DNA from: Flavobacteriales bacterium
GTDB lineage: Bacteria; Bacteroidota; Bacteroidia; CAIKAF01
Direction of reading: 5' to 3'
DNA length: 48,011 nt
Assembly: GCA_026418175.1 (NCBI GenBank)
Contig: JAOABX010000019.1
Location: 1-48,011, forward strand
The translations under genes were made by a program, and so were the position numbers. Below the pieces are notes generated by a model that made no database searches, was not told the origin of the DNA, and saw only the letters and a list, made by a program, of their open reading frames with translations. Below are positions 4,367-40,289 of the stretch, piece by piece (the first letter of the stretch is position 1; each line of letters begins with the position of its first letter).

Positions 4367-5383
4367 ATGAAGCATGTTTTGGTAACCGGCGGTGCAGGAT
4401 ATATTGGTTCACATACAGTGGTTGAATTGGTGCAAGCCGGATATGAAGTAGTGATTGTGGATGATTTATCAGCCTCGGATGGAAGTTTGTTAAAAGGCAT
4501 AAAGGCCATTATTGGCAAAGATATCCCTTTTATTCAGGTTGATGTAGCCGATGTACGAGCCTTGCATCGCATTGCTCATGAATTTGGGATGCCAGATGCT
4601 GTGATTCATTTTGCAGCATATAAATCAGTAAATGAATCAGTGGCAGAACCCTTAAAGTATTATCGGAACAATATTGGTGGCATGGCGGGGGTGTTGCAGT
4701 TTATGAAAGAAGGTGGGGTTAAAAAAATTGTTTTTTCGTCTTCATGTTCGGTGTATGGTCAACCGCAACTATTGCCTGTAAATGAAGAAGCTTCGTTGGC
4801 AAATCCACAATCGCCATATGCTAATACCAAGAAAATTTGCGAAGAAATGTTGGCTGATTTCTGTAAGGCTAATCAGCAAATTGATGCTATTTCGTTGCGT
4901 TATTTCAATCCGATTGGGGCTCACCCTTCGTCGTTAATTGGCGAATTACCGGTAGGTGTACCCAATAATTTAGTACCGTATATCACGCAAACAGCTGCCG
5001 GATTGCGTGAAAAATTATTTATATACGGTACCGACTATAATACTCCAGATGGTTCATGCATCCGTGATTTTATTCATGTTTCAGATTTAGCTATTGCCCA
5101 TGTAAAGGCTTTGGAATATCAACCGCCTCATTCACCCGAAGTATTTAATATTGGTACAGGTGAAGGGGTGTCGGTACTTCAACTTGTTACTTTATTTGAG
5201 GATGTAACCGGAAAGCAATTGCCCATAGAATATACGCATCGCCGCCCAGGTGATGTAGAGCAGGTATGGGCTGATAACTCCAAAGCTTTAAAAAAATTAG
5301 GTTGGAAACCGCAATATACACTTCAAGAAGCTCTACTTTCAGCCTGGAATTGGGAGAAAAAAATTAGGGGAATTACCGAATGA
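4367..5383 (+). CDS. galE: UDP-glucose 4-epimerase
   Basis: A 338-residue extended short-chain dehydrogenase that interconverts UDP-glucose and UDP-galactose, feeding polysaccharide and LPS synthesis in the cytoplasm. The NAD-binding Rossmann motif GGAGYIG sits at residues 8-14. The catalytic set is SSSCSVYG (Ser124-126) with Tyr151-x3-Lys155 in SPYANTK. Further epimerase signatures are HFAAYKSV (81-88), LRYFNPIGAHP and the C-terminal RPGD segment. Length matches the usual ~338 residues of GalE. It is transcribed alone, divergent from the XRE/S24 regulator, and the region between them holds the candidate operator, so that regulator could also affect galE. Confidence 0.95.
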   Translation: MKHVLVTGGAGYIGSHTVVELVQAGYEVVIVDDLSASDGSLLKGIKAIIGKDIPFIQVDVADVRALHRIAHEFGMPDAVIHFAAYKSVNESVAEPLKYYRNNIGGMAGVLQFMKEGGVKKIVFSSSCSVYGQPQLLPVNEEASLANPQSPYANTKKICEEMLADFCKANQQIDAISLRYFNPIGAHPSSLIGELPVGVPNNLVPYITQTAAGLREKLFIYGTDYNTPDGSCIRDFIHVSDLAIAHVKALEYQPPHSPEVFNIGTGEGVSVLQLVTLFEDVTGKQLPIEYTHRRPGDVEQVWADNSKALKKLGWKPQYTLQEALLSAWNWEKKIRGITE

Positions 5384-5415: not shown

Positions 5416-5775
5416 TTATTTATGGTGAATTTCATTACCCACTTTTTGGCAGCATTCCGGCAATTTATTGTATGCGTCTGTATTTGCCGGAGAATTATCT
5501 GCATTATATCCGGCTAGATTAATAGCTTTACGCAATGCTTCAATATTTGTTTTATGAGGTTTGTAAATTATCGTTACTGCCTTAGTATGTAAATCAAGAT
5601 TAGCGCTGATAACGCCCTTTACTTTATACAAGGCTTTTTCAATTCTTTCTTTACACATTTCGCATTGGGCGGAGGTATTTATTTTTGCTTCTTCTATTTT
5701 TTTAGTTCCGAGTTGCTGTGCTTTAGCCTGAATAGCCATCCATCCGGTCATGATTAGAATCAATATATACTTCAT
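5416..5775 (-). CDS. Secreted heavy-metal-associated (HMA) domain protein
   Basis: A 119-residue protein with a signal peptide (cleavage likely after AKAQ, residue ~20). A single HMA fold follows (about 30-93): CEMC (Cys38, Cys41) replaces the usual GMTCxxC loop, then the GVISANLDLHTKAVTI strand. A C-terminal CC pair (108-109) and a terminal HH add possible metal ligands. The family binds Cu(I), Zn, Hg or similar ions. Export to the periplasm suggests a scavenging or relay role rather than a cytosolic chaperone, as in MerP. It is divergent from a secreted Cys-rich protein, and a heavy-metal efflux operon lies 4 kb away. Metal identity cannot be read from the sequence. Confidence 0.85.
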   Translation of the reverse strand: MKYILILIMTGWMAIQAKAQQLGTKKIEEAKINTSAQCEMCKERIEKALYKVKGVISANLDLHTKAVTIIYKPHKTNIEALRKAINLAGYNADNSPANTDAYNKLPECCQKVGNEIHHK

Positions 5776-5793
5776 AAATTCCTGAATTAATTA

Positions 5794-5801
5794 CAAAATT
5801 A
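5794..5801 (-). promoter_or_regulatory. -7 element TAATTTTG of the HMA gene
   Basis: The complement reads TAatTTTG, 18 nt before the ATG at 5775. It matches the Bacteroidota TAnnTTTG consensus. Confidence 0.5.
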
Positions 5802-5867
5802 CCAAATATTATGGTGAGTATTTTATAAAAGTTAGTTAATGTTTTTCTTATTTATAGAAGTTTATTT

Positions 5868-5875
5868 TATTTTTG
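5868..5875 (+). promoter_or_regulatory. -7 element TATTTTTG of the Cys-rich gene
   Basis: An exact TAnnTTTG match 21 nt before the ATG at 5897. It overlaps the alternative upstream TTG start at 5873, which supports the shorter gene. Confidence 0.55.
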
Positions 5876-5896
5876 AATTATAAAGACCATTTAATT

Positions 5897-6193
5897 ATGA
5901 AAAAAATAATCATTTCTTCCGCTCTTATTTTTGGAGGGTTTGTTTTTGCTTCAGCTCAAAATGCTGTGTCAACTGATACTAAAGAAGTAAAAGAAGTAAA
6001 GGCATGTTGTTCAAAAGGAAGTACTGAAAAAGGATGTTGCTCTAAAGGTTCAACTGGGGCAACCAGCGCTAAAACTTGTAGCAGCTCAGAAGTAAAAGCA
6101 TGCAGCGGTCATGGACATGCTGCTACTAATCAAGAAGCGCAACCTGCAGTTACACCTAATGATAAAAAAAGTAAAAAGAAAGACGTGAAATAA
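5897..6193 (+). CDS. Small secreted Cys-rich protein (CCSKGST repeats), putative metal-binding
   Basis: A 98-residue product with a signal peptide (cleavage about FASA|Q, residue 20). The mature part is low-complexity and polar. It holds two copies of CCSKGST (Cys37/38 and Cys47/48), single Cys61 and Cys69, and a GHGH motif (71-74), and ends in a Lys-rich tail. No known domain is recognised. The paired Cys and His residues suggest metal binding, and the divergent HMA gene strengthens that inference. The start at 5897 was chosen over the in-frame TTG at 5873 because of the signal peptide and the promoter. A terminator follows 13 nt after the stop. Confidence 0.75.
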   Translation: MKKIIISSALIFGGFVFASAQNAVSTDTKEVKEVKACCSKGSTEKGCCSKGSTGATSAKTCSSSEVKACSGHGHAATNQEAQPAVTPNDKKSKKKDVK

Positions 6194-6234: not shown

Positions 6235-8706
6235 TCAATTTTTTCTTATTTCTGCTCCTATTTCTTCTTTAAATACTTGCATTAGCCTATCCATAAAAGC
6301 ATCTACTTCTTTGTCTGTGAATGTTTTCACGGGGTCCCAAAAGGTAAAACGAACCGCATACGACTTTTTATTATCAGGCAAATTTTTTCCTTCATACACG
6401 TCAAACAAAGTAACTTGATGAAGCTTCTTTTTAATAGTTTTTAATGCCAGCTCTTCAATTTTCCGATAATTTACATGCTTATCAAGCAACAAGGCAAGAT
6501 CGCGTTGCACCATTGGATATCTTGGAATATCTCTAAATTCTGGAGGAGAATTGCGAATGTTCTCTACCGCATAATCCCAATACATTTCGGCATACCAAAT
6601 TTCTTGTTTAATATCAAATTGTTTGAGTGTTTTTTTACTGATTTTGCCTGCCTGATAAAGCATTTTTTGTTGGTTGTCGGCAGCATGCACTACAAACAAT
6701 TCATCAAAGTCCGGATGTTCTTTTTCAGCCCTAATTACTGGTAAAAACGAAATGCGTAATTGTTTCAATATTGATTGACAAATGCCGTTTAATGCAAAAA
6801 AATCTGCTTTTACTTGTGCTTCATACCAATTGTCATCATGCATGTTTCCACTAATTAAAATACCAAGGCGATGTGATTCAGCGTATGGATTATTTTTTTT
6901 ATTATTTATAGTATTATCTGTGTGTTTCTGATACACTTTGCCAAATTCAAAGAGCTTTAAATTTAAATTTTTATGATTCATGTTATGTGCTGCAACTTTC
7001 ATTGCGCTATACAGTAAAGTTTTTCTCATTACATCCAGTTCAGAGCTGATTGGGTTTTCAAGATAAATCAAGCCTGATTTTTCAGCCTCATCAAGTGGCT
7101 GGTAATGTTTACTATGATCCAATGATAAGGATACTATTTCATGGAATCCGTTGGCACTGAGATAAGATGCAATTAGCTGGCGGAATCTACGTTGTGGTTT
7201 TTCAAATTCGTTTTTAAAAACGGCTTTTAAAGTGCTCCGCAATGGGATTTGGTCGTATCCAAAAATTCGCATGATTTCTTCAATCAGGTCTATTTCGCGG
7301 GTAACATCCACTTTATTGGTTGGCACATCTACAATGATGCCCTCTGCCCATGTTTCAACAATACTAATTCCAAGCGATTGTAAGATTTCAATGGCCTGAT
7401 GTTTTGGAAAATCAATGCCTGAAACTTCATCCAGTTTTTTCCATGAAAGTTGTATTCGGAATGGTGCTATTGGTTCCGGATACCAATCGCTGGCAGTTCC
7501 AGAAATTTTTCCTCCGGCTATTTCTGTAATTAAATGAACGGCACGCTGCAATGCTTCTAGTGTAAAATTGGGGTCTGTACCCCGCTCAAAGCGAAACGAA
7601 GCATCAGTATGTAAGCCGTGATGTCGAGATGTTTTACGTATATAAGCCGGGTGAAAGCATGCACTTTCAATAAATACACGGGTAGTTTTTTCTGTTACTC
7701 CTGAATTTAATCCGCCATAAACTCCTGCCAGGCATAAATTTTTTTCCGGGTCAGCAATCATCAAATCTGCACCTGTTAGTATACGTTCATTGCCATCTAA
7801 CGTAATAAATTTTTCTTCGGGCTGGGCTAATTTCACAACGATGGTTTTTTGTGAAATTTTATCTGCATCAAAGGCATGGAGAGGTTGTCCAGTTTCAAAA
7901 AGTACATAATTGGTAATATCAACAATGTTGTTAATGGGTTTGATACCAATGGCTTGCAATTTATGTTGCATCCATTCCGGAGAAGGTTTTACCTCAATTC
8001 CTTCAATCAATATACCAGAATAGCGAATGCATGCAGCCGGAGATTCAATTCTTACCTGTATGGCTGGATTTTGGTTGATATATTCTAAAGGAGGTGATGC
8101 AGGTATTTTTAACGAAGTTTTTTTCCCATGAGCATTTAAAAATGCAACAATATCCCGAGCTGTACCAATGTGCGAAGTAGCATCTACCCGATTCGGTGTA
8201 ATATTTAATTCTAATACGGTGTCTATTCCATTTTTAAAATAGTCTGAAGCTGGTTGGCCTGCTTTCAATGAATCCGGAAGCACCATGATTCCATCATGCG
8301 AAGTGCCAACCCCTATTTCATCTTCGGCACAGATCATCCCATGGGATTCTACTCCCCTGATTTTTGATTTTTTTATTTCTAATGGACCTTTTGCTGTATT
8401 TAATACACTACCCGGTTTAGCTACTACTACAGTTTGCCCTTCTTCTACATTCGGCGCTCCGCAAACTATTTGTACAGGCTCATCTTGTCCGATATCAACC
8501 CAGGTAACACTCAACCGGTCTGCATCCGGATGTTTTTCTTTTTTTACAATTTTACCTATAACAACTCCTTTCAACGATCCGGGTATAGATTCGTAGGTAC
8601 TTATATCTTCTACTTCCAGTCCGGTTTGAGTTAATATCTCAGCAGCAAGTGTATAGTTTACAGGATGTTCTAAATATTCGTTCAACCAATTGATAGAAAT
8701 TTTCAT
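6235..8706 (-). CDS. pheT: Phenylalanine-tRNA ligase beta subunit
   Basis: An 823-residue beta subunit of the (alpha-beta)2 enzyme that charges tRNA-Phe. Order of domains: N-terminal MKISINWLNEYL segment, EMAP-like tRNA-binding domain (~42-150, with HPDADRLSV), B3/B4 editing domain (~210-360), B5 domain (~400-470), a catalytic-like core (~480-700) and the C-terminal FDX-ACB anticodon-binding domain (~730-823, PRYPMVQRDLAL). The length is normal for bacteria. pheS is not adjacent, which is common in Bacteroidota. It is divergent from the sua5 gene and ends four bases after a terminator hairpin. Confidence 0.97.
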   Translation of the reverse strand: MKISINWLNEYLEHPVNYTLAAEILTQTGLEVEDISTYESIPGSLKGVVIGKIVKKEKHPDADRLSVTWVDIGQDEPVQIVCGAPNVEEGQTVVVAKPGSVLNTAKGPLEIKKSKIRGVESHGMICAEDEIGVGTSHDGIMVLPDSLKAGQPASDYFKNGIDTVLELNITPNRVDATSHIGTARDIVAFLNAHGKKTSLKIPASPPLEYINQNPAIQVRIESPAACIRYSGILIEGIEVKPSPEWMQHKLQAIGIKPINNIVDITNYVLFETGQPLHAFDADKISQKTIVVKLAQPEEKFITLDGNERILTGADLMIADPEKNLCLAGVYGGLNSGVTEKTTRVFIESACFHPAYIRKTSRHHGLHTDASFRFERGTDPNFTLEALQRAVHLITEIAGGKISGTASDWYPEPIAPFRIQLSWKKLDEVSGIDFPKHQAIEILQSLGISIVETWAEGIIVDVPTNKVDVTREIDLIEEIMRIFGYDQIPLRSTLKAVFKNEFEKPQRRFRQLIASYLSANGFHEIVSLSLDHSKHYQPLDEAEKSGLIYLENPISSELDVMRKTLLYSAMKVAAHNMNHKNLNLKLFEFGKVYQKHTDNTINNKKNNPYAESHRLGILISGNMHDDNWYEAQVKADFFALNGICQSILKQLRISFLPVIRAEKEHPDFDELFVVHAADNQQKMLYQAGKISKKTLKQFDIKQEIWYAEMYWDYAVENIRNSPPEFRDIPRYPMVQRDLALLLDKHVNYRKIEELALKTIKKKLHQVTLFDVYEGKNLPDNKKSYAVRFTFWDPVKTFTDKEVDAFMDRLMQVFKEEIGAEIRKN

Positions 8707-9825: not shown

Positions 9826-10194
9826 ATGAAAAAGTGGAAAATTATTTTTGTTTTTATTCCACTTCTCATGATGATGATTCATGGGTTTGTACCTCATACC
9901 CATGCTAATTCTTCTCATTCGTTGATTTGTGATGATGACGTTTCATTGACACACCGTTTTTTTGATTTAATTTCGGTAGATATTGGGGTGAATCATCTTC
10001 AAGATTATTTGGTGAATCATCCTCAAAGCATTGATCAACCTGTACAACTTTTTATTTTCTATTTTCTTTCTTCTTTCATCGTGGCATTGCATGCCGATTT
10101 TTTATTTGGCTTAAATAGTGAAGAAAAGGATACTCCCTTACACTCTTTGTTAGTAGTAGGCGATGTTTCACGCCGCGGCCCCCCGATGGTTTAA
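9826..10194 (+). CDS. Small membrane/secreted protein heading the efflux operon (DUF6769-like, tentative)
   Basis: A 122-residue protein with an N-terminal hydrophobic segment (~4-22), then HTHANSSH and several further His residues. A second hydrophobic stretch covers about 75-98, and the protein ends in the RRGPPMV tail. I recall short Bacteroidota proteins with a His-rich N-terminus and an RGPP end next to metal-efflux genes, possibly DUF6769, but cannot confirm it. It lies 83 bp upstream of the CusA-type pump and in the same direction, so it probably belongs to that operon, as a metal sensor, scavenger or accessory part. No catalytic motif is visible. Confidence 0.55.
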   Translation: MKKWKIIFVFIPLLMMMIHGFVPHTHANSSHSLICDDDVSLTHRFFDLISVDIGVNHLQDYLVNHPQSIDQPVQLFIFYFLSSFIVALHADFLFGLNSEEKDTPLHSLLVVGDVSRRGPPMV

Positions 10195-10277: not shown

Positions 10278-13200
10278 ATGATTCAACGAATCATTCAATT
10301 TTCAATACAGCAAAAGCTAATCATTGCATTACTTACGTTGGCACTGATTGTTTGGGGAATCTATTCCTTTTTACAAGTTCCGTTAGATGCAGTGCCTGAT
10401 ATTACTAACAACCAGGTGCAGGTAGTTACTGTATCATCTACACTTTCTACCGAAGAGGTAGAAAAATTTATTACGCAACCGATAGAACGTAATGTTGCAA
10501 ACTTACAAGGTGTAAAACAAGTTCGATCTATTTCCAGGTTTGGATTATCTGTTGTAACTATTGTTTTTGATGATCATATACCTACATTGCAGGCCAGGCA
10601 ATTAGTAAGTGAGAAACTACAAACCATATCCAATGAAATACCAGCCGAATTGGGCATTCCTGAATTAATGCCAATTACAACCGGTTTGGGCGAAATTTTT
10701 CAATATGTATTGCAAGTAAAGCCAGGGTATGAAAATAGGTTTTCATTGGCTGAATTAAGAACTATTCAAGACTGGATTGTGAAGAAACAAATGGCTGGTA
10801 TGGAGGGCATAGTGGAAATAAGCAGCTTTGGAGGTTATTTAAAACAATATGAGGTTGCTGTTGACCCTGAACGCCTTTCATCTATGGATATCACCCTGGA
10901 TGAAGTGATTGTTGCTTTATCTGCAAACAATGCAAATACAGGGGCCAGTTATATGGAAAAAGGAGAGAATTCTTTATTTATTCGATCTGAAGGGATGATC
11001 CGCTCATTGGATGAAATTGGTTTGATATTCATTAAAACAGTGAATGGAGTCCCGGTATATGTTAAAGATGTAGCATCAGAAATTCGGTTTGGCCATGCCA
11101 AGCGGTTTGGTGCCATGACAATGGACGGTAAAGGAGAAGTTGTAGGTGGGATTACGTTGATGTTAAAAGGTGCCAATTCGTATAATGTTGTTGCAGGAGT
11201 TAAAGAACGAATAAAAAAAATTCAGCAATCCTTGCCCGAAGGAGTTGTGATTATGCCTTTTATTGATAGGGCAACACTGATTGATAAAACTATTCATACT
11301 GTATCTAAAAACCTCCTCGAAGGTGGCTTGATTGTGGTATTTGTATTGGTGATTTTGCTGGGAAATTTAAGAGCCGGAGTTATTGTAGCATCTGTTATTC
11401 CTTTATCTATGTTATTTGCTTTTGGAATGATGAATGTATTTGGTGTTTCCGCTAATCTCATGTCGTTAGGTGCATTAGACTTTGGACTGGTGGTGGATGG
11501 AGCAGTAGTAGTTGTAGAGGGTATTATTCACCAATTACACCGCAAGTACTTAGGTAAAAAGTTAAGCAGGGAAGAAATGGATTATACAGTGCAGAGTTTT
11601 GCTGGGAAAATTATGCGCTCTGCAGTATTTGGACAAATTATTATCCTCATAGTATATATGCCCATTATGGCATTGGTGGGCATAGAAGGTAAGATGTTTA
11701 AACCCATGGCACTCACTGTAAGTTTTGCAATATTAGGAGCTATTATCCTTTCATTAACATATGTACCTATGCTTTCATCGGTATTAATTAGCAGAAGGAT
11801 AAAACATCACATTACCATTTCTGATCGAATTATGGGCTGGATTGAACGGTTTTATATTATAACATTAAAATCAATTATTCGAATGAAGTATTGGGTGATT
11901 GGGTTGGCCTTGATAGTATTTATTGTTAGTCTTTTTGTATTTACCAGGTTAGGCTCAGTTTTTATTCCTACTTTGGAAGAAGGAGATTTGGCCATGCAAA
12001 TGACAATGGTTCCGGGTACTTCCCTCCAACAGGTAATACATACTACTTCGATTGTAGAAGAGAAGTTGCTTCATACATTTCCAGAAGTAAAGCATGTGGT
12101 TTCTAAAATTGGAACGGCTGAAGTTCCTACTGATCCAATGGGAATGGAAGATACTGATATAATGATCATTTTAAAGCCAAAATCAGAATGGGTTTCGGCA
12201 TCATCCCGCGAAGCACTGGTAGATAAAATGAAAAAGAAACTGGAGGAAATACCGGGTGTATCTTTTGAATTTTCACAACCCATTCAGCTTCGTTTTAATG
12301 AATTGATGACAGGTAGTAAAGCAGATATTGCGGTTAAAATCTTTGGGGATGATATGGAAGTGTTATTTGATCAGGCCAATAAAGCCGCATCTATCATATC
12401 TAACATTCAGGGTGCAGCTGATATTAAAGTAGAGCAAGTAGAAGGTTTGCCTCAATTGATTGTAAAACCAGACAGGGCACAATTGGCCCGATATGGAATT
12501 CATATTGATGATGTCAATCTTGCTGTGCGTACAGCTTTTGCCGGTGAACCGGTAAGCGTTGTGTATGAAGGTGAACGAAAATTTGATATGGTGGTTCGCT
12601 ATGCTAAACATAGCAGGGAAGATGTAGAAGTGTTTAACCGTATGTACCTACGAAGTATTACCGGAGAATTGATTCCTTTGTCTTCGGTTTGTGACATTCG
12701 ATTTGCTAAAGGGCCGATGTTGATTTCCAGAGAAAATGCGCAGCGAAGAATTGTTATCGGTATCAATGTTCGTAACAGGGATATTCAATCGCTTGTAACC
12801 GAAATTCAGAGTAAACTTCAAAAAGGGCTAACTCTTCCTGAGGGATATTACATTACTTATGGTGGAGAGTTTGAAAATTTGCAACATGCACGAAAACGCT
12901 TGTCTATAGCTGTACCTGCAGGTTTGCTATTGATATTTATCTTGTTGTTTTTTGCTTTTGGCTCGTTAAAAGATGCAGTGATGATTTATACAGCTGTACC
13001 CCTGGCTGCCATTGGCGGAATTTTTGCCTTACTCATTCGTGGTATGCCTTTTAGTATTTCTGCTGGTGTAGGTTTTATTGCATTATTTGGAGTGGCAGTG
13101 CTAAATGGTATTGTACTTATTGGTTTTTTTAAACAGTTAGAATCAGAGGGTAAGCATAATGTGTATCGAAGAGTGCTGGAAGGTACTAAAACCAGGCTTC

Positions 13201-14603
13201 GGCCTGTATTGATGACTGCTGCTGTTGCTTCACTTGGATTTATCCCCATGGCCATTAGCCAATCAGCAGGTGGCGAGGTGCAGCGACCATTGGCTACGGT
13301 AGTAATTGGAGGCCTTATTACCTCTACGCTGTTAACACTAATTTTATTACCCATAATTTATATTATTTTTTCTAATAAGCCCAAAAAACTTGTATCACCT
13401 GTTGTTCTTTTGATTTTGGCTGTATTATTTCAGTTACCATTAAATGCACAGCAAGCAAATGATACTTTGCGAATTGATAAAGATAAACTGGTTCAAGCTG
13501 CCTTGGAATATTATCCTTTACTAAAAAATTCAATGCTTGAAGTGAATAAATCCAAGGCGAATGTAGCTTCTGCCTGGGATGTCCCCAACGCTGAATTTCA
13601 ATTGCAACGCGGACAAATTAATTCTGTGTTGGTTGATAATTATTTTACCTTATCTCAAAGTTTGGGCAATCTTGTTTACAATTCCATAAATACTTCCTAT
13701 TTGAAGCAACGAATACAATTGATGCAAAATTTTTCGCAACAACAGGAATTAAAATTGAAATGGCAGGTTTTAGGATTGTATGAAGAAATGGTGGCAGCTA
13801 TTCAGAAATATCGCTGGCTAAAAGAAGAAAATGATATCCTGAAAGAACTAAGTAGAATTACAGAATTACAACAAAAGCAAGGAGCTACGGATGTGCTTAC
13901 CGATATTGCAGTTAAGCGAATGTTGGCCTCTTCTGATCAAACGTTACGAAAGTGGCAGGCTGGTTATGTAGAGATGATGAATATGATGCAGGTATTGACT
14001 GGACTAACCCAATTCATCATTCCTTCAAACGACTCATTATTGCTTAATTCTTTCAGATTGTTGCTGGAACAAAACATTGATTCTACTACCTATCCAATCA
14101 TACAGCAATATATCATTGAAAAAAATTTAGCAAAAAAAAATTATCAGGTTCAATCGTCTTCATTTGCTCCTACCTTGAATGGAGGATATTTTAACCAGCA
14201 ATTAGATCATGTAAATGGATTTCAGGGTTTTTTGGTTGGTGTGGGTATTCCACTTTTTTCAGCAAAGAATTACAGCGAAGTGAAGAAAGCTAAAATACAA
14301 ATCGATCAAGCGGAAAATGAACTGGTATATCAATCCAAACGTCTTCATACGGAACTAAAGACATTAAAAGAAAAAACATTGCAATCGTATCAAAACATAG
14401 TTCAATTTCAAAATCAACTACTCCCGGATGCTCAACGTATGATTGAACAAGCCAGAAAAAAATATCTAGCAGGCGACATTGGGTTTTATGAATTTCAACT
14501 TCATTTTACTCAAGCCAATGCTGTTCGTTATAGTTTTATTGATGAAGTTTTATTGTATAATCAGTATGTTTTAGCATACGCATATTTAACAGGAAAATTA
14601 TGA
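10278..14603 (+). CDS. CusA/CzcA-family heavy-metal efflux RND pump fused to a TolC-like domain
   Basis: A 1441-residue fusion. Residues 1 to ~1040 are a heavy-metal RND inner-membrane pump: an N-terminal TM helix, the VPLDAVPDITNNQVQV motif, and the HME-type signature with Asp401, Asp407 and Glu414 (LDFGLVVDGAVVVVEG) in TM4. Asp407 appears to match the essential CusA Asp405. The large periplasmic domain and the second TM bundle are present. At about 1040-1056 a hydrophobic, signal-like stretch ends in LNAQQ. Residues ~1060-1441 are a helical outer-membrane-factor (TolC-type) domain. Such fusions recur in Bacteroidota, so this is not a frameshift artefact. It likely exports Cu/Ag or Co/Zn/Cd out of the cell; the ion is not assigned. 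Confidence 0.93.
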   Translation: MIQRIIQFSIQQKLIIALLTLALIVWGIYSFLQVPLDAVPDITNNQVQVVTVSSTLSTEEVEKFITQPIERNVANLQGVKQVRSISRFGLSVVTIVFDDHIPTLQARQLVSEKLQTISNEIPAELGIPELMPITTGLGEIFQYVLQVKPGYENRFSLAELRTIQDWIVKKQMAGMEGIVEISSFGGYLKQYEVAVDPERLSSMDITLDEVIVALSANNANTGASYMEKGENSLFIRSEGMIRSLDEIGLIFIKTVNGVPVYVKDVASEIRFGHAKRFGAMTMDGKGEVVGGITLMLKGANSYNVVAGVKERIKKIQQSLPEGVVIMPFIDRATLIDKTIHTVSKNLLEGGLIVVFVLVILLGNLRAGVIVASVIPLSMLFAFGMMNVFGVSANLMSLGALDFGLVVDGAVVVVEGIIHQLHRKYLGKKLSREEMDYTVQSFAGKIMRSAVFGQIIILIVYMPIMALVGIEGKMFKPMALTVSFAILGAIILSLTYVPMLSSVLISRRIKHHITISDRIMGWIERFYIITLKSIIRMKYWVIGLALIVFIVSLFVFTRLGSVFIPTLEEGDLAMQMTMVPGTSLQQVIHTTSIVEEKLLHTFPEVKHVVSKIGTAEVPTDPMGMEDTDIMIILKPKSEWVSASSREALVDKMKKKLEEIPGVSFEFSQPIQLRFNELMTGSKADIAVKIFGDDMEVLFDQANKAASIISNIQGAADIKVEQVEGLPQLIVKPDRAQLARYGIHIDDVNLAVRTAFAGEPVSVVYEGERKFDMVVRYAKHSREDVEVFNRMYLRSITGELIPLSSVCDIRFAKGPMLISRENAQRRIVIGINVRNRDIQSLVTEIQSKLQKGLTLPEGYYITYGGEFENLQHARKRLSIAVPAGLLLIFILLFFAFGSLKDAVMIYTAVPLAAIGGIFALLIRGMPFSISAGVGFIALFGVAVLNGIVLIGFFKQLESEGKHNVYRRVLEGTKTRLRPVLMTAAVASLGFIPMAISQSAGGEVQRPLATVVIGGLITSTLLTLILLPIIYIIFSNKPKKLVSPVVLLILAVLFQLPLNAQQANDTLRIDKDKLVQAALEYYPLLKNSMLEVNKSKANVASAWDVPNAEFQLQRGQINSVLVDNYFTLSQSLGNLVYNSINTSYLKQRIQLMQNFSQQQELKLKWQVLGLYEEMVAAIQKYRWLKEENDILKELSRITELQQKQGATDVLTDIAVKRMLASSDQTLRKWQAGYVEMMNMMQVLTGLTQFIIPSNDSLLLNSFRLLLEQNIDSTTYPIIQQYIIEKNLAKKNYQVQSSSFAPTLNGGYFNQQLDHVNGFQGFLVGVGIPLFSAKNYSEVKKAKIQIDQAENELVYQSKRLHTELKTLKEKTLQSYQNIVQFQNQLLPDAQRMIEQARKKYLAGDIGFYEFQLHFTQANAVRYSFIDEVLLYNQYVLAYAYLTGKL

Positions 14604-15733
14604 AAACTAAAATATTACTAATCGTGGGGATTACCCTGGGAATAACTGCTTGTAAAAAATCAAAAAAAGAAGAATTGCCAAACGATGAGGTTACAATAAA
14701 AAATCAAATTGTATTAACTAAAGAGCAGGAAAAAACAGCCGGTGTAGAAAGTGGATATTTGTTAAAAACAGTATCTCCGGGTGTGATATATTGTAATGGT
14801 ATAATTGATGTGCCACCCGATGCAAAAGCTTCAATTTATGTTCCAGTAGCTGGTTTTATACAGCATGTGTATGTGCTTCCTGGTGATAAGGTAACTAAAG
14901 GGCAGCGGTTGGTTTCTATGCAACATCCTGATTATATTTCCCTTCAAAAACAATATATCGAAGTTACTTCACAACTTAAACTTGCCGAAAAGGAATTAGA
15001 ACGCCAAGCAACACTAAAAAGTGATAATGCCACTACAGGCCGATTGTTTGATAAAGCTGAAGCTGATGTAAAAGTGCTAAAAAGCCAAGCGGGTGCCATT
15101 GAAGCTCAATTATTTATGTTAGGTATAAATCCTACTGATGTGTTGAATGGAAAAATTTATTCAGAGGTTATTTTAACAGCTCCATTTAGTGGATATATCG
15201 GTAGTTTTACAGCAAATACTGGGAAATACATCAGACAGGATGAAGAAATTATGACTGTTTTAAATAAAGAACATTTACATGCTGAACTAAGGGTTTTTGA
15301 AAAAGACATTTTAAAAGTAAAAGAAAATCAGCCAGTATATTTTAAGCTTACAGGTTCTAATAAAATCTACGAAGCTTATGTAAAGTTAATCGGAAAAGAG
15401 GTAGAGCCTGTTTCCAGAACCGTGCAAGTACATGCACATATTGATAAAAAATATCCTGAAATTGTAAATGGCATGTTTGTAAATGCTGAAATTCATACTT
15501 CTGCTGACTCAGTGTATGTTATTCCTGAAAGTGCATTAATGGAAGAGGGGGGACACTATTACTGTATGGTAGATTTAGGGCAACATACCTATGAAATGCA
15601 GGAGGTATTGCCTGGTAGCACACATGATGGGCAAACTGAAGTTTTGAATGCGGATGAGTTTTTACAAAAAAAGGTAGTTTTAAAAGGGGCTTATTCTTTA
15701 TTTGCCATCATAAAAAAATCAAAAGATGAGTAA
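14600..15733 (+). CDS. RND efflux periplasmic adaptor lipoprotein (membrane-fusion protein)
   Basis: A 377-residue adaptor that links the pump to the outer-membrane part. A lipobox GITAC (Cys18) suggests membrane anchoring. Order: a barrel-sandwich/lipoyl half (PVAGFIQHVYVLPGDKV, ~82-100), an alpha-helical hairpin (~115-165), a second lipoyl half (LTAPFSGYIG), then beta-barrel and membrane-proximal domains ending at FAIIKKSK. The start overlaps the pump's stop by 4 bp (ATGA), so the two are translationally coupled. It lacks an obvious His- or Met-rich extra domain, so it does not help to settle the metal. It is the last gene of the efflux operon. Confidence 0.92.
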   Translation: MKTKILLIVGITLGITACKKSKKEELPNDEVTIKNQIVLTKEQEKTAGVESGYLLKTVSPGVIYCNGIIDVPPDAKASIYVPVAGFIQHVYVLPGDKVTKGQRLVSMQHPDYISLQKQYIEVTSQLKLAEKELERQATLKSDNATTGRLFDKAEADVKVLKSQAGAIEAQLFMLGINPTDVLNGKIYSEVILTAPFSGYIGSFTANTGKYIRQDEEIMTVLNKEHLHAELRVFEKDILKVKENQPVYFKLTGSNKIYEAYVKLIGKEVEPVSRTVQVHAHIDKKYPEIVNGMFVNAEIHTSADSVYVIPESALMEEGGHYYCMVDLGQHTYEMQEVLPGSTHDGQTEVLNADEFLQKKVVLKGAYSLFAIIKKSKDE

Positions 15734-26840: not shown

Positions 26841-28907
26841 TTACTGTGGATGATAAATCTTTTCGGCAGTTTTTAAAATTTCTTCTTTGTCGGTTAGCAC
26901 ACGCTTTGTTTTTTTATTTACAAATAATTCCATTTGGTCATTGTAATGTTTACTATGCGGTCTAGCACTTGATCCATATGCGTGAACACTTTCGGCTGTT
27001 ACCCCTTCAGGCCCGTATGCAACAAACTGGATGAACGAATCTCCACCGGTGGCTTTGTATTTACCATTTTTCATGAGTTTGGAGTGTGTGGGGGCAGGTA
27101 CTTCGGTGATACCATCAATTGGTAAATCTTTATCACCTCGAATGTGTCGTTGAATTTCTCCCAAAGGAACTTCCAGTTTCCCAAAGTTTTTTAAATAATG
27201 TTCTTTGGTATTTTTTAATGCAGCATAGATTTGTCGTTCGGTGGGTTGATATGTTGCTGTAAAATATTCCCGGGTGTCCATGCCTAGAATTTTTACCAAT
27301 TGGTCTGCGTAGTGTATGAACAACATGGCTGAAGTGTTATTTACATCGGCACTTTTATTCCATGAATTCAATAAATTCCATATATCTGCAATGTCTTTAA
27401 ATGCTGAGGTATCAATTTTTAAGGCGCGATACATTCCCTCTATAACATAACCGGAAGAAGGATAATGAACATCATATTTGATACGTTTAATATCTTCTAA
27501 AGTTAATTTATCGGTATTTTCAAATAATTCATTAAATCTGTAACTACGGTTGGTTTCTATGGTTTGTAATCCGATAATGGTTTTACAAATGGATTTATCC
27601 AAATCATTTTCATCGCAGGTAGCATTCAAGGGGCTGTTATTAGCATTGAATAGATAACCACATTCGGGATTATATTGCAGTGGACGAAGTTCAAATGGAA
27701 TGAAGCCATCCCAAAGGTTTGCTTTTGTATTTCCTTTTAAGGTATGGTCGTAATTAAAGCCAGGTTTTCTAACCGGATAATGGGCTTGCGATAAATACAT
27801 AATGTTATCTTCCTTATCGGCATATATAATATTTAGCAAAGGGAACCCATCAGTTTTTAGGGCTTCCATGTACTGGTCATAGTTTTTTGCTCTACCCATG
27901 CGGTACCATTGTTCTGCTGCTTTTATACTTCGATTGGTGGCAATGGCTGTGGCATACACACCATATTTGTTTGCTAAGGCCGGCCCATAAATGGTTTGAT
28001 AAAATTTTCGTTTTATTCCAATGCGTATTCCGCCTATTTTGAGTTTTACTTTGGCAAAATCTTTTTTCAATGGTAACCATTCACCATCAATCTTATATTT
28101 GGTTCGTGCTTTATTGGTTTCCAATTCATACACATCAACCAAGTCATGATAATTAAAAGTATGAGCCCATGAAAGATTTTCGTTAAAACCAAGAAAAACA
28201 GTCACTCCACCGGCAAATAAGGCACCGTTCATATCTGTGCCTTCTTCACTTTTTGTATGGGCTTCGTACCAACTGTACCGGCCTTCGTAAGAATTGTGAG
28301 GATTCACTACGAGATAAGTTTTTCCATCGGCTGATTTGGAACTTTTAATGGCTATGGCGTTTGACCCGGTGGGTAAATCATTTTCTTCAAATCGCTTGAT
28401 TTCGTTTTGAAATATATCCTTCAGGTATAATGCTGCACCTGAAAACAAATTTAATGCGGTACAATATCCTTTAATTACATCTTTTTCGGTAAATGGTAGC
28501 GCTTTTTTGTATAATACTTCTTCCGGATGCAGTTCTGCATAACGGTTTAAGGCTTGAACATATGCACTCAGCACTTTTTTAAAATCTTCACTCAGGTCTT
28601 TGTCGTAATGTTCTTCCACCAAATCATCAATTCCCACATACTGCACAAAAAAATCAAACAATAATCCGTCTTTTCCTATGGCAGCTCCCAGCATGGATTT
28701 GGCAGCCAATAAATTTTCTTGAATATTTCTGAAATCATCTTCAGCATGTGCCCAGGCAAGTCCATAGGCTACTTCGGCATCAGTTTTTCCAAAGATATGC
28801 GGCACGCCGTATAAATCTCTAGCAATAGTAATATTTTGAGGATTGATTTGACAATACCCATGCACAGTGAAAGCCAGCAAGCTTACAGCTAAAATAAAAC
28901 GGAACAT
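26841..28907 (-). CDS. Penicillin acylase-family Ntn hydrolase, paralogue 1
   Basis: A 688-residue precursor with a signal peptide (to about YCQ, residue 20). The N-terminal alpha-chain region has ITIARDLYGVPHIFGKTDAE and the AWAHAEDDF motif typical of the family. Autoprocessing should occur at Gly181|Ser182, freeing the nucleophile Ser1-beta of SNAIAI. His204 falls at beta-position 23, as in AHL and cephalosporin acylases rather than penicillin G acylase. GFNENLSWAHT and NANNSPLNAT are further conserved elements. It would hydrolyse an amide-linked acyl chain in the periplasm or outside. Two paralogues lie at 35555 and 38205; paralogue 3 appears the closer one (NPENITIARD, GLAWAHAEDDF, RHIRG shared). 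Confidence 0.92.
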   Translation of the reverse strand: MFRFILAVSLLAFTVHGYCQINPQNITIARDLYGVPHIFGKTDAEVAYGLAWAHAEDDFRNIQENLLAAKSMLGAAIGKDGLLFDFFVQYVGIDDLVEEHYDKDLSEDFKKVLSAYVQALNRYAELHPEEVLYKKALPFTEKDVIKGYCTALNLFSGAALYLKDIFQNEIKRFEENDLPTGSNAIAIKSSKSADGKTYLVVNPHNSYEGRYSWYEAHTKSEEGTDMNGALFAGGVTVFLGFNENLSWAHTFNYHDLVDVYELETNKARTKYKIDGEWLPLKKDFAKVKLKIGGIRIGIKRKFYQTIYGPALANKYGVYATAIATNRSIKAAEQWYRMGRAKNYDQYMEALKTDGFPLLNIIYADKEDNIMYLSQAHYPVRKPGFNYDHTLKGNTKANLWDGFIPFELRPLQYNPECGYLFNANNSPLNATCDENDLDKSICKTIIGLQTIETNRSYRFNELFENTDKLTLEDIKRIKYDVHYPSSGYVIEGMYRALKIDTSAFKDIADIWNLLNSWNKSADVNNTSAMLFIHYADQLVKILGMDTREYFTATYQPTERQIYAALKNTKEHYLKNFGKLEVPLGEIQRHIRGDKDLPIDGITEVPAPTHSKLMKNGKYKATGGDSFIQFVAYGPEGVTAESVHAYGSSARPHSKHYNDQMELFVNKKTKRVLTDKEEILKTAEKIYHPQ

Positions 28908-35554: not shown

Positions 35555-37663
35555 ATGAGCCGTGTTGCCCTTACTGCATGCCTTTTGCTATTCACTGTGT
35601 TTATTTTGCCTGCTCAACAAAAATCACTTTCAATTGACTTACAAATAAGAAAAGATTCAATATTTATTGTACGCGACACTTGGGGAGTGCCACATATTTA
35701 TGCCCCCACCGATGAAGAAACTGTGTATGGTTTTATGTGGGCTACCTGTGAGGATGATTTTAAAACTTTGCAGGAAATGCTGGCTATTACAAAAGGAATG
35801 AATGGAAGAATAAACGGGAAAGATGGTGCAGTAACCGACTATGTGGTTCAACTACTGGATATACAAAATACAGTGAAACAAAAATTTGATCAAACCTTTT
35901 CTCACAAATTCAAAAAAATTTTGCAAGCAGCCTGTGATGCGGTTAATACCTATGCAACGTTAAATCCTAAAGAAATTATCATTAAAAAACTATTTCCTGT
36001 AACTCCCTATGAAATAATTCAAGGATATGTACTAGGCACCACATTTTTATCATCTATCAGTGAGTCATTGACTAAAATTTTTGAAGATCGTTTACCCCCT
36101 TTGGATCCCGGAAAGCAATATGGCTCAAATGGGATAGCTGTTCATGCTAGCAAAACTAATGATGGCCAAAATTACATTGCCATAAATTCTCATCAACCTC
36201 TGGAAGGAGTTTTCAGTTGGTATGAAGCACATTTAGTAAGTAATGAAGGCTTGAATATGTTGGGTTCGTCATTGCTGGGAGCTATAACCCTAAATCAAGG
36301 AGTTAACGAACATTTGGCATGGGCTCATACGCTTAATTTTAATGATTTTTTTGATGTTTATAAATTAACCATGCACCCTAAAAAGAAAGATTGGTATCGG
36401 TTTGATGGAAAGTGGTTGAAATTAGAAAAGAAAAAAACGAAACTTGCTGTAAAGCTAAAAAAATGGTTACCTGTAATTACCATTTCTAAGCCGGCTTATT
36501 ATAGTGTTTATGGGCCTACATTAAAAACAAAGTCTGGCGTTTATTCCATTCGTGGTGTAGCGTATAATAAAATTGGAGTGGCGGAGCAATGGTATCGTAT
36601 GGGCAAAGCTCGAAATTTTAGTGAATTTAAAAAAGCCTTAGAAATGCAACAAATGCCCAATATGAATATTGTATATGCCGATAGGTACGATACCATATTC
36701 TACATTTCAAACGGGCTATATCCCAAAGGCCGAAGTGAGCGATATAATTGGAAACAATTAATACCCGGAGATACCTCTGAAACATTGTGGAGTATGGAAG
36801 ATTTTTACTCTATTGATGAATTACCTCATTATTTAAATCCGGAGTGTGGGTATGTATATAATACCAATCACACCCCGTTTTTTGCGTCTAAAGAAGATTG
36901 CAGCCTCGACCCGAAAGCTTATTGCCGCACGATGGGATTTCAGGTTCGCCACTTTAATCGTAGCAAGCGATTAAAGCAATTAATGGATACAGTGCAGCAG
37001 TTTAATTGGAAATTATTTAAACGAATTAAGTATGACATGGTTGTACCGGATACAGTTGTTTTTATAACTAGTGTTGAAAAGTTTTTGACAATTGATACGT
37101 TGCAATATCCTGATTTGGCTGAATCGGTTCGAATTCTTCATGAATGCGAACGGGTAGGCGATACGGCAAATCCAAATGTTGCTTTATGGTTACTTGCATT
37201 TATGGATTTGATGAATAAAGTAAAATTTGATATTGAATTTGTACCACACAGCGTAGAAACTCCCATCGAAGTATATGTAGAATGTTTGAGAAATGCCCGT
37301 GATCATTTAATGAAACATTTTGGAAGTTTACGCGTGCCTTTTGGTAAAGTGCAACGATTACGGAGGGCTGATAAAGATTTGCCTTTACCGGGCTTGCCTG
37401 ATGTTTTAGCGGCCATGTATCCCAAAAAGAGAAAAGATGGAACATTAGCCCCTGAATCGGGTGATTGTTACATTCTATTGGCTAAAATTGGAAAAAAAGG
37501 AATTGAGCTTGAAAGTGTAAATGCCTACGGAGCTTCTAATCGGCCCGAAAGTAAACATTATACCGACCAGATGGAATTATTTGTAAATCAAAAAACCAAA
37601 CCTATGACGCTTGAAAAAGAAGCAATATGGAAAAATGCAGAAAGGATTTATCATCCTAAATAA
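35555..37663 (+). CDS. Penicillin acylase-family Ntn hydrolase, paralogue 2
   Basis: A 702-residue precursor with a signal peptide (ending LPAQQ, ~22). The family opening is IFIVRDTWGVPHIYAPTDEE, then MWATCEDDF where the other two paralogues have AWAHAEDDF. The predicted processing site is Gly190|Ser191 (SNGIAV), with His213 at beta-position 23. The oxyanion-region sequence GVNEHLAWAHT and the NTNHTPFFA loop are conserved. It differs from paralogues 1 and 3 by Lys-rich insertions around residues 275-310, so it is the most divergent. It is the first gene of a unit with a small beta-barrel protein 17 bp downstream and acylase 3. Confidence 0.92.
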   Translation: MSRVALTACLLLFTVFILPAQQKSLSIDLQIRKDSIFIVRDTWGVPHIYAPTDEETVYGFMWATCEDDFKTLQEMLAITKGMNGRINGKDGAVTDYVVQLLDIQNTVKQKFDQTFSHKFKKILQAACDAVNTYATLNPKEIIIKKLFPVTPYEIIQGYVLGTTFLSSISESLTKIFEDRLPPLDPGKQYGSNGIAVHASKTNDGQNYIAINSHQPLEGVFSWYEAHLVSNEGLNMLGSSLLGAITLNQGVNEHLAWAHTLNFNDFFDVYKLTMHPKKKDWYRFDGKWLKLEKKKTKLAVKLKKWLPVITISKPAYYSVYGPTLKTKSGVYSIRGVAYNKIGVAEQWYRMGKARNFSEFKKALEMQQMPNMNIVYADRYDTIFYISNGLYPKGRSERYNWKQLIPGDTSETLWSMEDFYSIDELPHYLNPECGYVYNTNHTPFFASKEDCSLDPKAYCRTMGFQVRHFNRSKRLKQLMDTVQQFNWKLFKRIKYDMVVPDTVVFITSVEKFLTIDTLQYPDLAESVRILHECERVGDTANPNVALWLLAFMDLMNKVKFDIEFVPHSVETPIEVYVECLRNARDHLMKHFGSLRVPFGKVQRLRRADKDLPLPGLPDVLAAMYPKKRKDGTLAPESGDCYILLAKIGKKGIELESVNAYGASNRPESKHYTDQMELFVNQKTKPMTLEKEAIWKNAERIYHPK

Positions 37664-37680: not shown

Positions 37681-38202
37681 GTGGTACGTCTTATTTTAAT
37701 ATTCATTCTCTTATATCAATTCCTTGCAGGTATAAAAAATGCCTATTCTCAAAATATTTCAGGTACATCCATAATTACACCCATTCCGATTAGCACCTTA
37801 TCTGATTACAGCGCTATTGGTATAGGGCTTGCCGGGCATTCGCGTTTCTTTGTATTAGAACGTTTGGGCATTGGGTTTCATACCGCTTTTCATTACCAAT
37901 TTGGCAGAAATGGATTTAATGGACACATTACGATACCGCTACGTGGTGTGGCAGAATATTACTTCACTGACGATGGTGCCCGTATTCGGCCATATCTTGG
38001 TGGAGATTTAGGTGTAGCAATGTCCACTTATTCCGGGCCATTTCGTTTTTATTTTCATGGGGCAGCGGGTGGAGGTGCATTATTTGAATTGAGTGAATAT
38101 ATTCAACTTGTTACTCAATTTAAATTTTGTGTGATGGTTGGTTCAGGTATGGCTATGTATCTGGAACCATCCATAGGTTTTAATTACAAATTAGGATATT
38201 GA
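37681..38202 (+). CDS. Small outer-membrane beta-barrel-like protein
   Basis: A 173-residue protein with a signal peptide (LILIFILLYQFLA ... AYSQ, ~24) and about eight amphipathic strands with Gly/aromatic alternation (AIGIGLAGHS, GIGFHTAFHYQF, RPYLGGDLGVAMS, HGAAGGGALFEL). It ends in Tyr, as barrel proteins usually do. The start is GTG at 37681; no ATG lies in the signal region, and the preceding stop is only 17 bp away. It sits between two acylase genes and almost touches the second (2-bp gap to its ATG), so the three are co-transcribed. Its role may be structural or transport; no known OMP family can be named. Confidence 0.65.
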   Translation: MVRLILIFILLYQFLAGIKNAYSQNISGTSIITPIPISTLSDYSAIGIGLAGHSRFFVLERLGIGFHTAFHYQFGRNGFNGHITIPLRGVAEYYFTDDGARIRPYLGGDLGVAMSTYSGPFRFYFHGAAGGGALFELSEYIQLVTQFKFCVMVGSGMAMYLEPSIGFNYKLGY

Positions 38203-38204
38203 TA

Positions 38205-40289
38205 ATGAGATTTTTTTTATTAATTTCTGGATTCCTTTCTGTATATTCATCATTTTCACAAACATTTTCTCTTATAAATCCTGAAAATATTACCATTGCC
38301 AGAGATACATTTGGAGTTCCACACATATTTGCACCTACTGATGCAGAAGCAGCCTATGGCCTTGCTTGGGCACATGCCGAAGATGATTTTGAACATATAC
38401 AACATAATTTGTTAGCTGCAAAAGGACGATTAGGCGAAGTATTAGGAAAAGAGGGAGTGCTTTTTGATTTTGCATTAAAATTTTTAGGTATAGATACCCT
38501 GGTAGAACACCAATATGAAAAAGATTTGACCGAATCATTCCGAAAAGTTATTGAAGGGTATGTACAGGGCATCAATGCCTATGCACAGGCTTTTCCTCAC
38601 GAAGTGTTGATTAAAAATGCATTGCCGTTTACTGGGCAGGATGTTATCAAGGGCTATGTACTTTCCTTATCCTTAATGTCTGGCGTAGGTATGGCCTTAA
38701 AAGCTATTAAAGAAAACCGATTTGAAGAATTTTTTGCACCCAATGACCAAGGTTCAAATGCCCTAGCCATAGCCCCTTCCCGAACAGAAGATGGAAAAAC
38801 CTGGTTGTTGATAAATTCACACCAACCCATTGAAGGCCGTTTTGCATGGTACGAAGCACACATTAACAGCGAAGAAGGCTGGAATGTTATCGGAGGATTG
38901 TTCCCGGGCGGAGTTACCATTTTTGTAGGTTCCAACGAGCACCTAGGTTGGGCGCATACTACCAACTATCATAATTTTGGTGATGTGTATAAACTATATA
39001 CCAAACCTGGTAATAAAAAGTATTATCTCTACGATGGCCAGTGGAAAAAATTTAGAAACAGAAAACTTTTGTTGAAAGTAAAACTGGCTGGATTGAAGAT
39101 AGGATTGAAGAAAAAAGTACTCGATTCTGAATTTGGGCCAGTATTTAAAACTAAGCATGGTTGGTTTGCCATTCGTTTTCCGGCTTACCAAGATATACGT
39201 TCGGCAGAACAATGGTATCGCATGAACAAAGCACAAAATTTTGAAGAATTTGAAACTGCCATAAAAATGCAGGCAATACCATTATTCAATATTGTATATG
39301 CTGATAAAAACGGAAATATACTCATGCATTCGGGAGGTAAAATACCATGGAGAAATCCTAAACTTAACTGGAAATTACCTATTACCGGAACATCTTCTTC
39401 TTATAAGTGGACGGATTTAATTCCTTATGAAAAAATGCCCTCAATATTAAATCCCGCGTGTGGCTATGTTTATAATGCTAATCAAACACCCTTGCATGCA
39501 ACCGGTGAATCGTGCAACTGGGATGGAAAATTTATCGGCCTACAATTATTTGAATACAATCGTGGCGAACGGTACAAAGAATTACTGGAAGCCCATACCG
39601 GAAAATTTTCATGGAACGATTTTTTGCGCATTAAATTTGATAAATCGTATGTTAAAAATGGATGTTATGCAGACCGCTTCAAAGCTGCTTTTGAATTAGA
39701 CGAACAAAAATATCCCGATATAGCAGATGCTATTCAAAAACTAAAAACATGGAATTTATCTGGTGAAGTTGATAACAAAGAGGCAGCCCTTGCCATGGTT
39801 TTTCATGATGTATTAATGAAAAAAAATAACGGGCCATTTGCCTTACTGATGATTCGTCATAAAAAAATAACCGAAGAAGAATGCGCCGATGCTCTTAGAA
39901 AGGCGAAGCGTTTCTTGTTGAAACATCATGGTAGTTTAGATATTTCTTTAGGGCAAGTACAACGCCATATTCGCGGAAATATTAATATTCCTGCATCCGG
40001 GTTGCGTGAAGTTTCCAGAGCCGCAGATGCCAAATTATACGATATGAAACGAGGATTATATCGTATTGTCAGTGGTGATGGGTATATTCAACTGGTAAAG
40101 TTTGGTAGAGACTATCCTGAAATTTGGTCGGTAAATGCATATGGTGCTTCTTCTAAGCCTGATTCGCCACATTATACCGATCAGATGGAAATGTTTCAGC
40201 GGGAAGAGTTTAAGCCAATGACATTTGATAAAAGCAAAATACTAAATATGGCTGAAAGAATTTACAAGCCTTATGTAGATAAAAAATAA
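38205..40289 (+). CDS. Penicillin acylase-family Ntn hydrolase, paralogue 3
   Basis: A 694-residue precursor counted from the ATG at 38205; an in-frame TTG at 38199 overlaps the preceding stop and is less likely. The signal peptide ends near SSFSQ. Family motifs are NITIARDTFGVPHIFAPTDAE, GLAWAHAEDDF, GSNEHLGWAHT and NANQTPLHAT. The predicted self-cleavage is GlyGly-like at G|SNALAI: Ser184 from the ATG is Ser1-beta, and the His 22 residues later is position 23-beta. Overall it is closest to paralogue 1, 9 kb away on the other strand, rather than to its operon neighbour paralogue 2. The stop codon forms part of a direct repeat. Confidence 0.92.
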   Translation: MRFFLLISGFLSVYSSFSQTFSLINPENITIARDTFGVPHIFAPTDAEAAYGLAWAHAEDDFEHIQHNLLAAKGRLGEVLGKEGVLFDFALKFLGIDTLVEHQYEKDLTESFRKVIEGYVQGINAYAQAFPHEVLIKNALPFTGQDVIKGYVLSLSLMSGVGMALKAIKENRFEEFFAPNDQGSNALAIAPSRTEDGKTWLLINSHQPIEGRFAWYEAHINSEEGWNVIGGLFPGGVTIFVGSNEHLGWAHTTNYHNFGDVYKLYTKPGNKKYYLYDGQWKKFRNRKLLLKVKLAGLKIGLKKKVLDSEFGPVFKTKHGWFAIRFPAYQDIRSAEQWYRMNKAQNFEEFETAIKMQAIPLFNIVYADKNGNILMHSGGKIPWRNPKLNWKLPITGTSSSYKWTDLIPYEKMPSILNPACGYVYNANQTPLHATGESCNWDGKFIGLQLFEYNRGERYKELLEAHTGKFSWNDFLRIKFDKSYVKNGCYADRFKAAFELDEQKYPDIADAIQKLKTWNLSGEVDNKEAALAMVFHDVLMKKNNGPFALLMIRHKKITEEECADALRKAKRFLLKHHGSLDISLGQVQRHIRGNINIPASGLREVSRAADAKLYDMKRGLYRIVSGDGYIQLVKFGRDYPEIWSVNAYGASSKPDSPHYTDQMEMFQREEFKPMTFDKSKILNMAERIYKPYVDKK

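Follow-up and report, generated by a model that had tools for sequence, protein, structure and literature searches.

A conserved divergent gene pair for an HMA-domain protein and a cysteine-rich protein in one family of Bacteroidia: a candidate periplasmic metal-handling unit

Two small genes stand back-to-back across three genera of a single, little-known family of Bacteroidia, one encoding an HMA-domain protein and the other a cysteine- and lysine-rich protein, both predicted to be exported. We propose, at roughly even odds, that this conserved divergent pair works as one unit, probably under common control, in handling a soft metal, most likely Cu(I), in the periplasm, with the HMA protein acting as a chaperone and the Cys-rich protein as a thiol buffer. 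The window, which is the whole 48,011-nucleotide stretch analysed, is contig C10 of the 2.68-Mb draft genome of a Flavobacteriales bacterium (G000). The features that matter here are:

4367..5383, plus strand: gene for a GalE-like UDP-glucose 4-epimerase; it and the HMA gene converge
5416..5775, minus strand: gene for the predicted exported HMA-domain protein, 119 aa (open reading frame and PF00403)
5776..5896, no strand: divergent promoter region of 121 bp between the HMA and Cys-rich genes
5794..5801, minus strand: -7-like element TAATTTTG of the HMA gene (TAnnTTTG class, enriched relative to shuffles)
5868..5875, plus strand: -7-like element TATTTTTG of the Cys-rich gene (TAnnTTTG class, enriched relative to shuffles)
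5897..6193, plus strand: gene for the predicted exported Cys/Lys-rich protein, 98 aa with 6 Cys, ATG at 5897 (open reading frame, family alignment, dN/dS)
10278..14603, plus strand: RND pump, CzcA/ZneA-like, carrying a fused outer membrane efflux domain (TIGR00914, 1146 bits)
14600..15733, plus strand: RND periplasmic adaptor of the pump (TIGR01730, 133 bits)

Linkage of the pair and its promoter region

A preliminary description of this DNA had placed two small exported proteins back-to-back, and both open reading frames are indeed there, diverging from the 121-bp spacer. Twelve genomes of the family hold both genes, and 10 of these 12 keep them divergent, with spacers of 76-362 bp: G000 and G001 in genus g1, G004-G009 in g2, and G012 and G013 in g5. 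The preliminary description had asked whether co-occurrence and synteny extend across Bacteroidota, and counted a lack of conserved linkage in relatives among the findings that would tell against it. Linkage is conserved across the three genera, but within one family (order) and not generally. It is strong rather than absolute, since G010 and G011 carry both genes unlinked, and G014 and G015 carry the Cys-rich gene without the HMA protein; G002 and G003 have neither gene. On the Cys-rich side the flanking genes depend on the genus: pheT, murF, or secG together with a TPR-like gene. The HMA side also varies, with galE, a gene for a Dpp5-like peptidase or a further gene; apart from galE and Dpp5, the flanking genes were named by reading their sequence. 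Because both flanks differ while the pair stays, the pair outlasts its surroundings. The galE-like gene, which also adjoins the pair in G005, G007, G012 and G013 and matches NCBIfam galE in its G005 copy, probably does not belong to the system.

Each gene has its own -7 element, as the preliminary description had stated, with a TAnnTTTG box 26 bp before the ATG of the HMA gene and 29 bp before that of the Cys-rich gene. Across the ten genomes with a divergent pair, such boxes occur 24-41 bp before the start at 16 of 20 promoter positions, compared with a mean of 0.36 and a maximum of 3 in dinucleotide shuffles. A -33 TTG is seen in few promoters, and by eye we saw no conserved operator in the spacers across different genera. 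The two genes are probably co-controlled from their common spacer.

These data bear on a simpler account, in which the two exported proteins act independently and their adjacency is a functionally meaningless inheritance from the family ancestor. Restriction to one family fits that account, as do the unlinked genes of G010 and G011 and the solitary Cys-rich genes of G014 and G015. Yet the pair persists though both flanks have changed between genera, and the -7 boxes are kept in both directions, so that we regard inherited adjacency as unlikely, if still a serious contender.

Two further layouts were seen within the family. In G011, G014 and G015, the Cys-rich gene diverges from a gene for a DUF4412-like exported protein, followed by a RecX-like gene, in a second conserved divergent arrangement (L087 3949-5013, L099 about 6660-7748, L100 6070-7152; DUF4412 is confirmed by Pfam in G015 only). 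In G013, two tandem HMA genes lie opposite one Cys-rich gene (L098 7258-8012).

Properties of the two proteins

The HMA protein matches Pfam PF00403 with an E-value of 2.5e-12 and 47.4 bits, against a curated cut-off of 24.8. Read by eye, its N-terminus is that of a Sec signal peptide, with a basic start, a hydrophobic core and A-x-A (QAKA/Q), and the Cys-rich protein begins in the same way (FASA/Q); export of both is predicted from these N-termini. The HMA protein carries a C38-x-M-C41 loop and a C-terminal LPxCC motif (C108, C109), and all four cysteines are invariant in its family alignment. An AlphaFold2 model (pLDDT 84, with good confidence over residues 30-110) predicts the beta-alpha-beta-beta-alpha-beta elements of a ferredoxin-like fold, and its top Foldseek matches are CopZ (6ff2, TMt 0.94) and MerP (1osd, TMt 0.89). 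The profile of the protein scores best with copper ATPase domains and CopZ, and the protein falls under the NCBIfam equivalog cut-offs for both CopZ (41.2 of 91 bits) and MerP (40.4 of 92.6 bits). Judged by its sequence, it belongs to the HMA family, within which it is divergent. We propose that it would serve as an exported CopZ/MerP-like metallochaperone, binding one metal ion on CxMC with the LPxCC tail assisting.

The Cys-rich protein contains the exact motif CCSKGST twice (aa 37-43 and 47-53), followed by a Lys-rich tail. The preliminary description had assigned it to no recognised family, and we agree: it has no match in Pfam, NCBIfam or PDB, including to any known metallothionein family. 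Its gene, single-copy in the window's genome, has homologues in 14 of the 16 genomes of the family, which is the whole order sampled, and between close relatives dN is 0.017-0.053 and dS 0.16-0.61 (dN/dS about 0.05-0.1). Family-wide homologues and strong purifying selection between close relatives mark it as a real gene rather than a chance reading frame. Among ten homologues the mature chains hold 5-8 Cys and 0-1 aromatic residues, and the first CC pair is invariant in the family alignment. This resembles metallothionein in composition only. We propose that the protein would be an exported, largely unstructured, metallothionein-like thiol buffer that absorbs excess metal, its vicinal CC pairs holding what is spare. 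A point against the metal-buffer reading is that thiols exposed to the periplasm may be oxidised.

That same oxidising environment, together with the vicinal CC motifs in both proteins, would suit a thiol redox pair, in which the HMA-fold and CC proteins swap disulfides and protect envelope thiols without carrying metal. We judge this improbable: an HMA fold with a CxxC-type loop is a metal-carrier fold, no thioredoxin-like partner adjoins the pair, and some relatives lie near copper genes. The Cys-rich protein might instead give rise to a modified metal-binding peptide of, for example, the bufferin type; it recalls bufferins in outline, being a small exported protein with repeated Cys-Lys-Gly motifs (PMC12452194). 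We reject that identity as extremely improbable because the modifying MNIO enzyme (PF05114) is found in 0 of the 16 family genomes, with two control genomes positive; nor did any NCBIfam RiPP model match the protein.

Across 395 genomes of the class, the Cys-rich profile gives nine weak matches outside the family, all to similar small exported CC/Lys-rich proteins, and none of the nine adjoins an HMA protein like the pair's. The match in L051 looks HYC_CC_PP-like and adjoins a larger gene with an HMA-like start. Similar small exported Cys/Lys-rich proteins stand singly in other families of Bacteroidia (L047, L049, L050, L053, L054 and L055), with no metal genes evident next to them.

The nearby pump, the TonB-dependent receptor and the metal

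The preliminary description further supposed that the pair hands metal on to a heavy-metal efflux operon 4 kb away. The distance holds, as the pump begins 4.1 kb from the pair in the window, but pheT and a Sua5-like gene intervene. In the pump, a single chain of 1441 aa combines a CzcA-type protein with its outer membrane efflux protein; the gene for the adaptor follows downstream. It adjoins the pair, at about 3-4 kb, in G000 and G001 only, and the two are 62 kb apart in G007. Seven genomes that carry the pair (G004, G005, G006, G008, G009, G012 and G013) gave no close pump homologue: they have distant RND homologues only, or none at E <= 1e-60. The pump is not a conserved partner of the pair. 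It scores 731 bits against ZneA and 566 bits against CusA, and in the printed alignment it has Q, D and E at the three positions of what we take to be the copper-binding Met triad of CusA (M573, M623 and M672). Since it scores higher with ZneA and lacks the Met residues of CusA, the pump appears suited to divalent metals, and by sequence it is CzcA/ZneA-like rather than CusA-like.

We therefore reject hand-off to the pump as a general function, on the grounds of patchy linkage and of pump type. As a local arrangement, the pair might still supply metal from the periplasm to the neighbouring CzcA-type pump, given their proximity in G000 and G001 and the fact that both would face the periplasm. 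The seven genomes without a close homologue, the 62-kb separation in G007, the unrelated genes between pair and pump, and a pump type that suits divalent metals where the HMA type suits Cu(I) make this very improbable. In G000 and G001 alike, the gene immediately before the CzcA-OEP fusion encodes an unnamed small protein that contains His and is either membrane-bound or exported (window 9826-10194, plus strand; L090 4272-4646, plus strand). Elsewhere in the window, one 14-kb stretch encodes three large, mutually similar exported proteins that are penicillin-acylase-type amidase-like by sequence (26841-28907, 35555-37663 and 38199-40289).

Relatives of the HMA protein point to another partner. 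The HMA family occurs in 247 of 395 genomes of the class (E <= 1e-20), and at 39 of 57 HMA loci outside the family, taken as higher-scoring matches and not a random sample, the gene immediately upstream, in the same orientation, encodes a TonB-dependent receptor. Inspection of operons showed that the receptor gene often follows one of HYC_CC_PP type (the model match is shown for the G011 case), and a CC close to where the plug begins is invariant in the receptor alignment. None of the 57 loci has a divergent Cys-rich partner, and outside the family we found no convincing CC-containing small protein divergent from HMA genes. The window's genome also has such a receptor, 43% identical to that of G011, with a HYC-type gene before it and no HMA gene after it:

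L106 4307-7137 (G000:C77, about 48306-51136): TonB-dependent receptor in the window's genome

This genomic context suggests that the receptor, not the pump, is the partner of the HMA protein. Gene order further raises the suggestion that the pair's HMA gene was relocated out of a receptor operon; it is only a suggestion because the HMA tree is poorly resolved, with 33 of 67 inner branches open among 70 proteins. We found no paper on HYC_CC_PP or the receptor motif among open-licence papers, and comparison of the receptor with solved structures gave no informative match for a copper-type assignment. The operon of a HYC_CC_PP-type protein and receptor, usually then HMA, recurs in Bacteroidia (also L086, L088, L101, L102, L105 and L109-L112). 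The window's genome has another such receptor (L108 3009-5633, G000:C55), preceded by a gene for a small exported protein of HMA-like sequence with no Pfam match. In G012 and G013 there is, besides the pair, an HMA paralogue linked to a receptor, and its Cys motif is longer (CxxCxxCxxC).

Under the chaperone-and-buffer reading, metal would probably reach the chaperone via the TonB-dependent receptor with which it usually shares an operon in other Bacteroidia, and could be exchanged between the two proteins. We favour copper because the closest folds and profiles are CopZ, MerP and copper ATPases, because some neighbours are copper genes, and because of the naming in Bizionia (PMC11213822). The neighbours in question, seen in some relatives, are a Csp1-like copper store, a CusA/CzcA pump or a multicopper-oxidase-like gene, but copper genes within 3 kb are rare in the class sample (Csp at 2 and CzcA at 1 of 57 loci), so that Cu(I) is no more than the likely metal. 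The CxMC of the HMA protein differs from the usual copper motif MxCxxC, which counts against copper. More tentatively, and with a rather low chance of holding in full, the data may outline an undescribed outer-membrane metal route of Bacteroidia, in which an invariant-CC receptor delivers copper to a CC-tailed chaperone and one family has added a metallothionein-like buffer under a shared divergent promoter.

To our knowledge, the list of dedicated buffers for periplasmic metal is short, and little work on the subject has been done in Bacteroidota. Should our proposal be correct, an unnamed exported Cys-rich family gains a name and a testable role, and a widespread, apparently unstudied operon of HYC_CC_PP protein, TonB-dependent receptor and HMA protein becomes a candidate metal route open to study in cultivated flavobacteria.

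Comparison with known systems

We did not find the divergent HMA/Cys-rich arrangement in the literature (open-licence papers only), and its components have several known counterparts. CopZ and MerP share with the window's HMA protein the HMA fold and a CxxC-type loop, and MerP is likewise exported, as the HMA protein is predicted to be. Unlike CopZ and MerP, the window's protein has CxMC without a Met two residues before the first Cys and an additional invariant LPxCC tail, and its gene adjoins neither CopA nor merT. Also comparable are BaCopZP1-3 of Bizionia argentinensis, exported HMA proteins that are also from Bacteroidota, likened to MerP and proposed from sequence as periplasmic copper chaperones; the available part of that source describes no divergent Cys-rich partner (PMC11213822). 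The receptor/HYC_CC_PP/HMA operon of Bacteroidia includes the same HMA family, whereas the window's HMA gene sits outside that operon.

The Cys-rich protein can be set beside two classes of metal-binding polypeptides. Like bacterial metallothioneins such as PmtA (PMC11237414), it is small, rich in Cys and nearly free of aromatic residues; unlike them, it has a predicted signal peptide, CC-S-K-G motifs, no sequence match and a Cys content of only about 8% of the mature chain. Bufferins and HvfA-type thiooxazole metallophores are, like it, small exported Cys peptides, proposed to bind envelope copper, but their systems include an MNIO enzyme that the window's family genomes lack. Overall, the pair represents a variant, specific to this family, of a kind of system already known, and includes one unnamed protein family.
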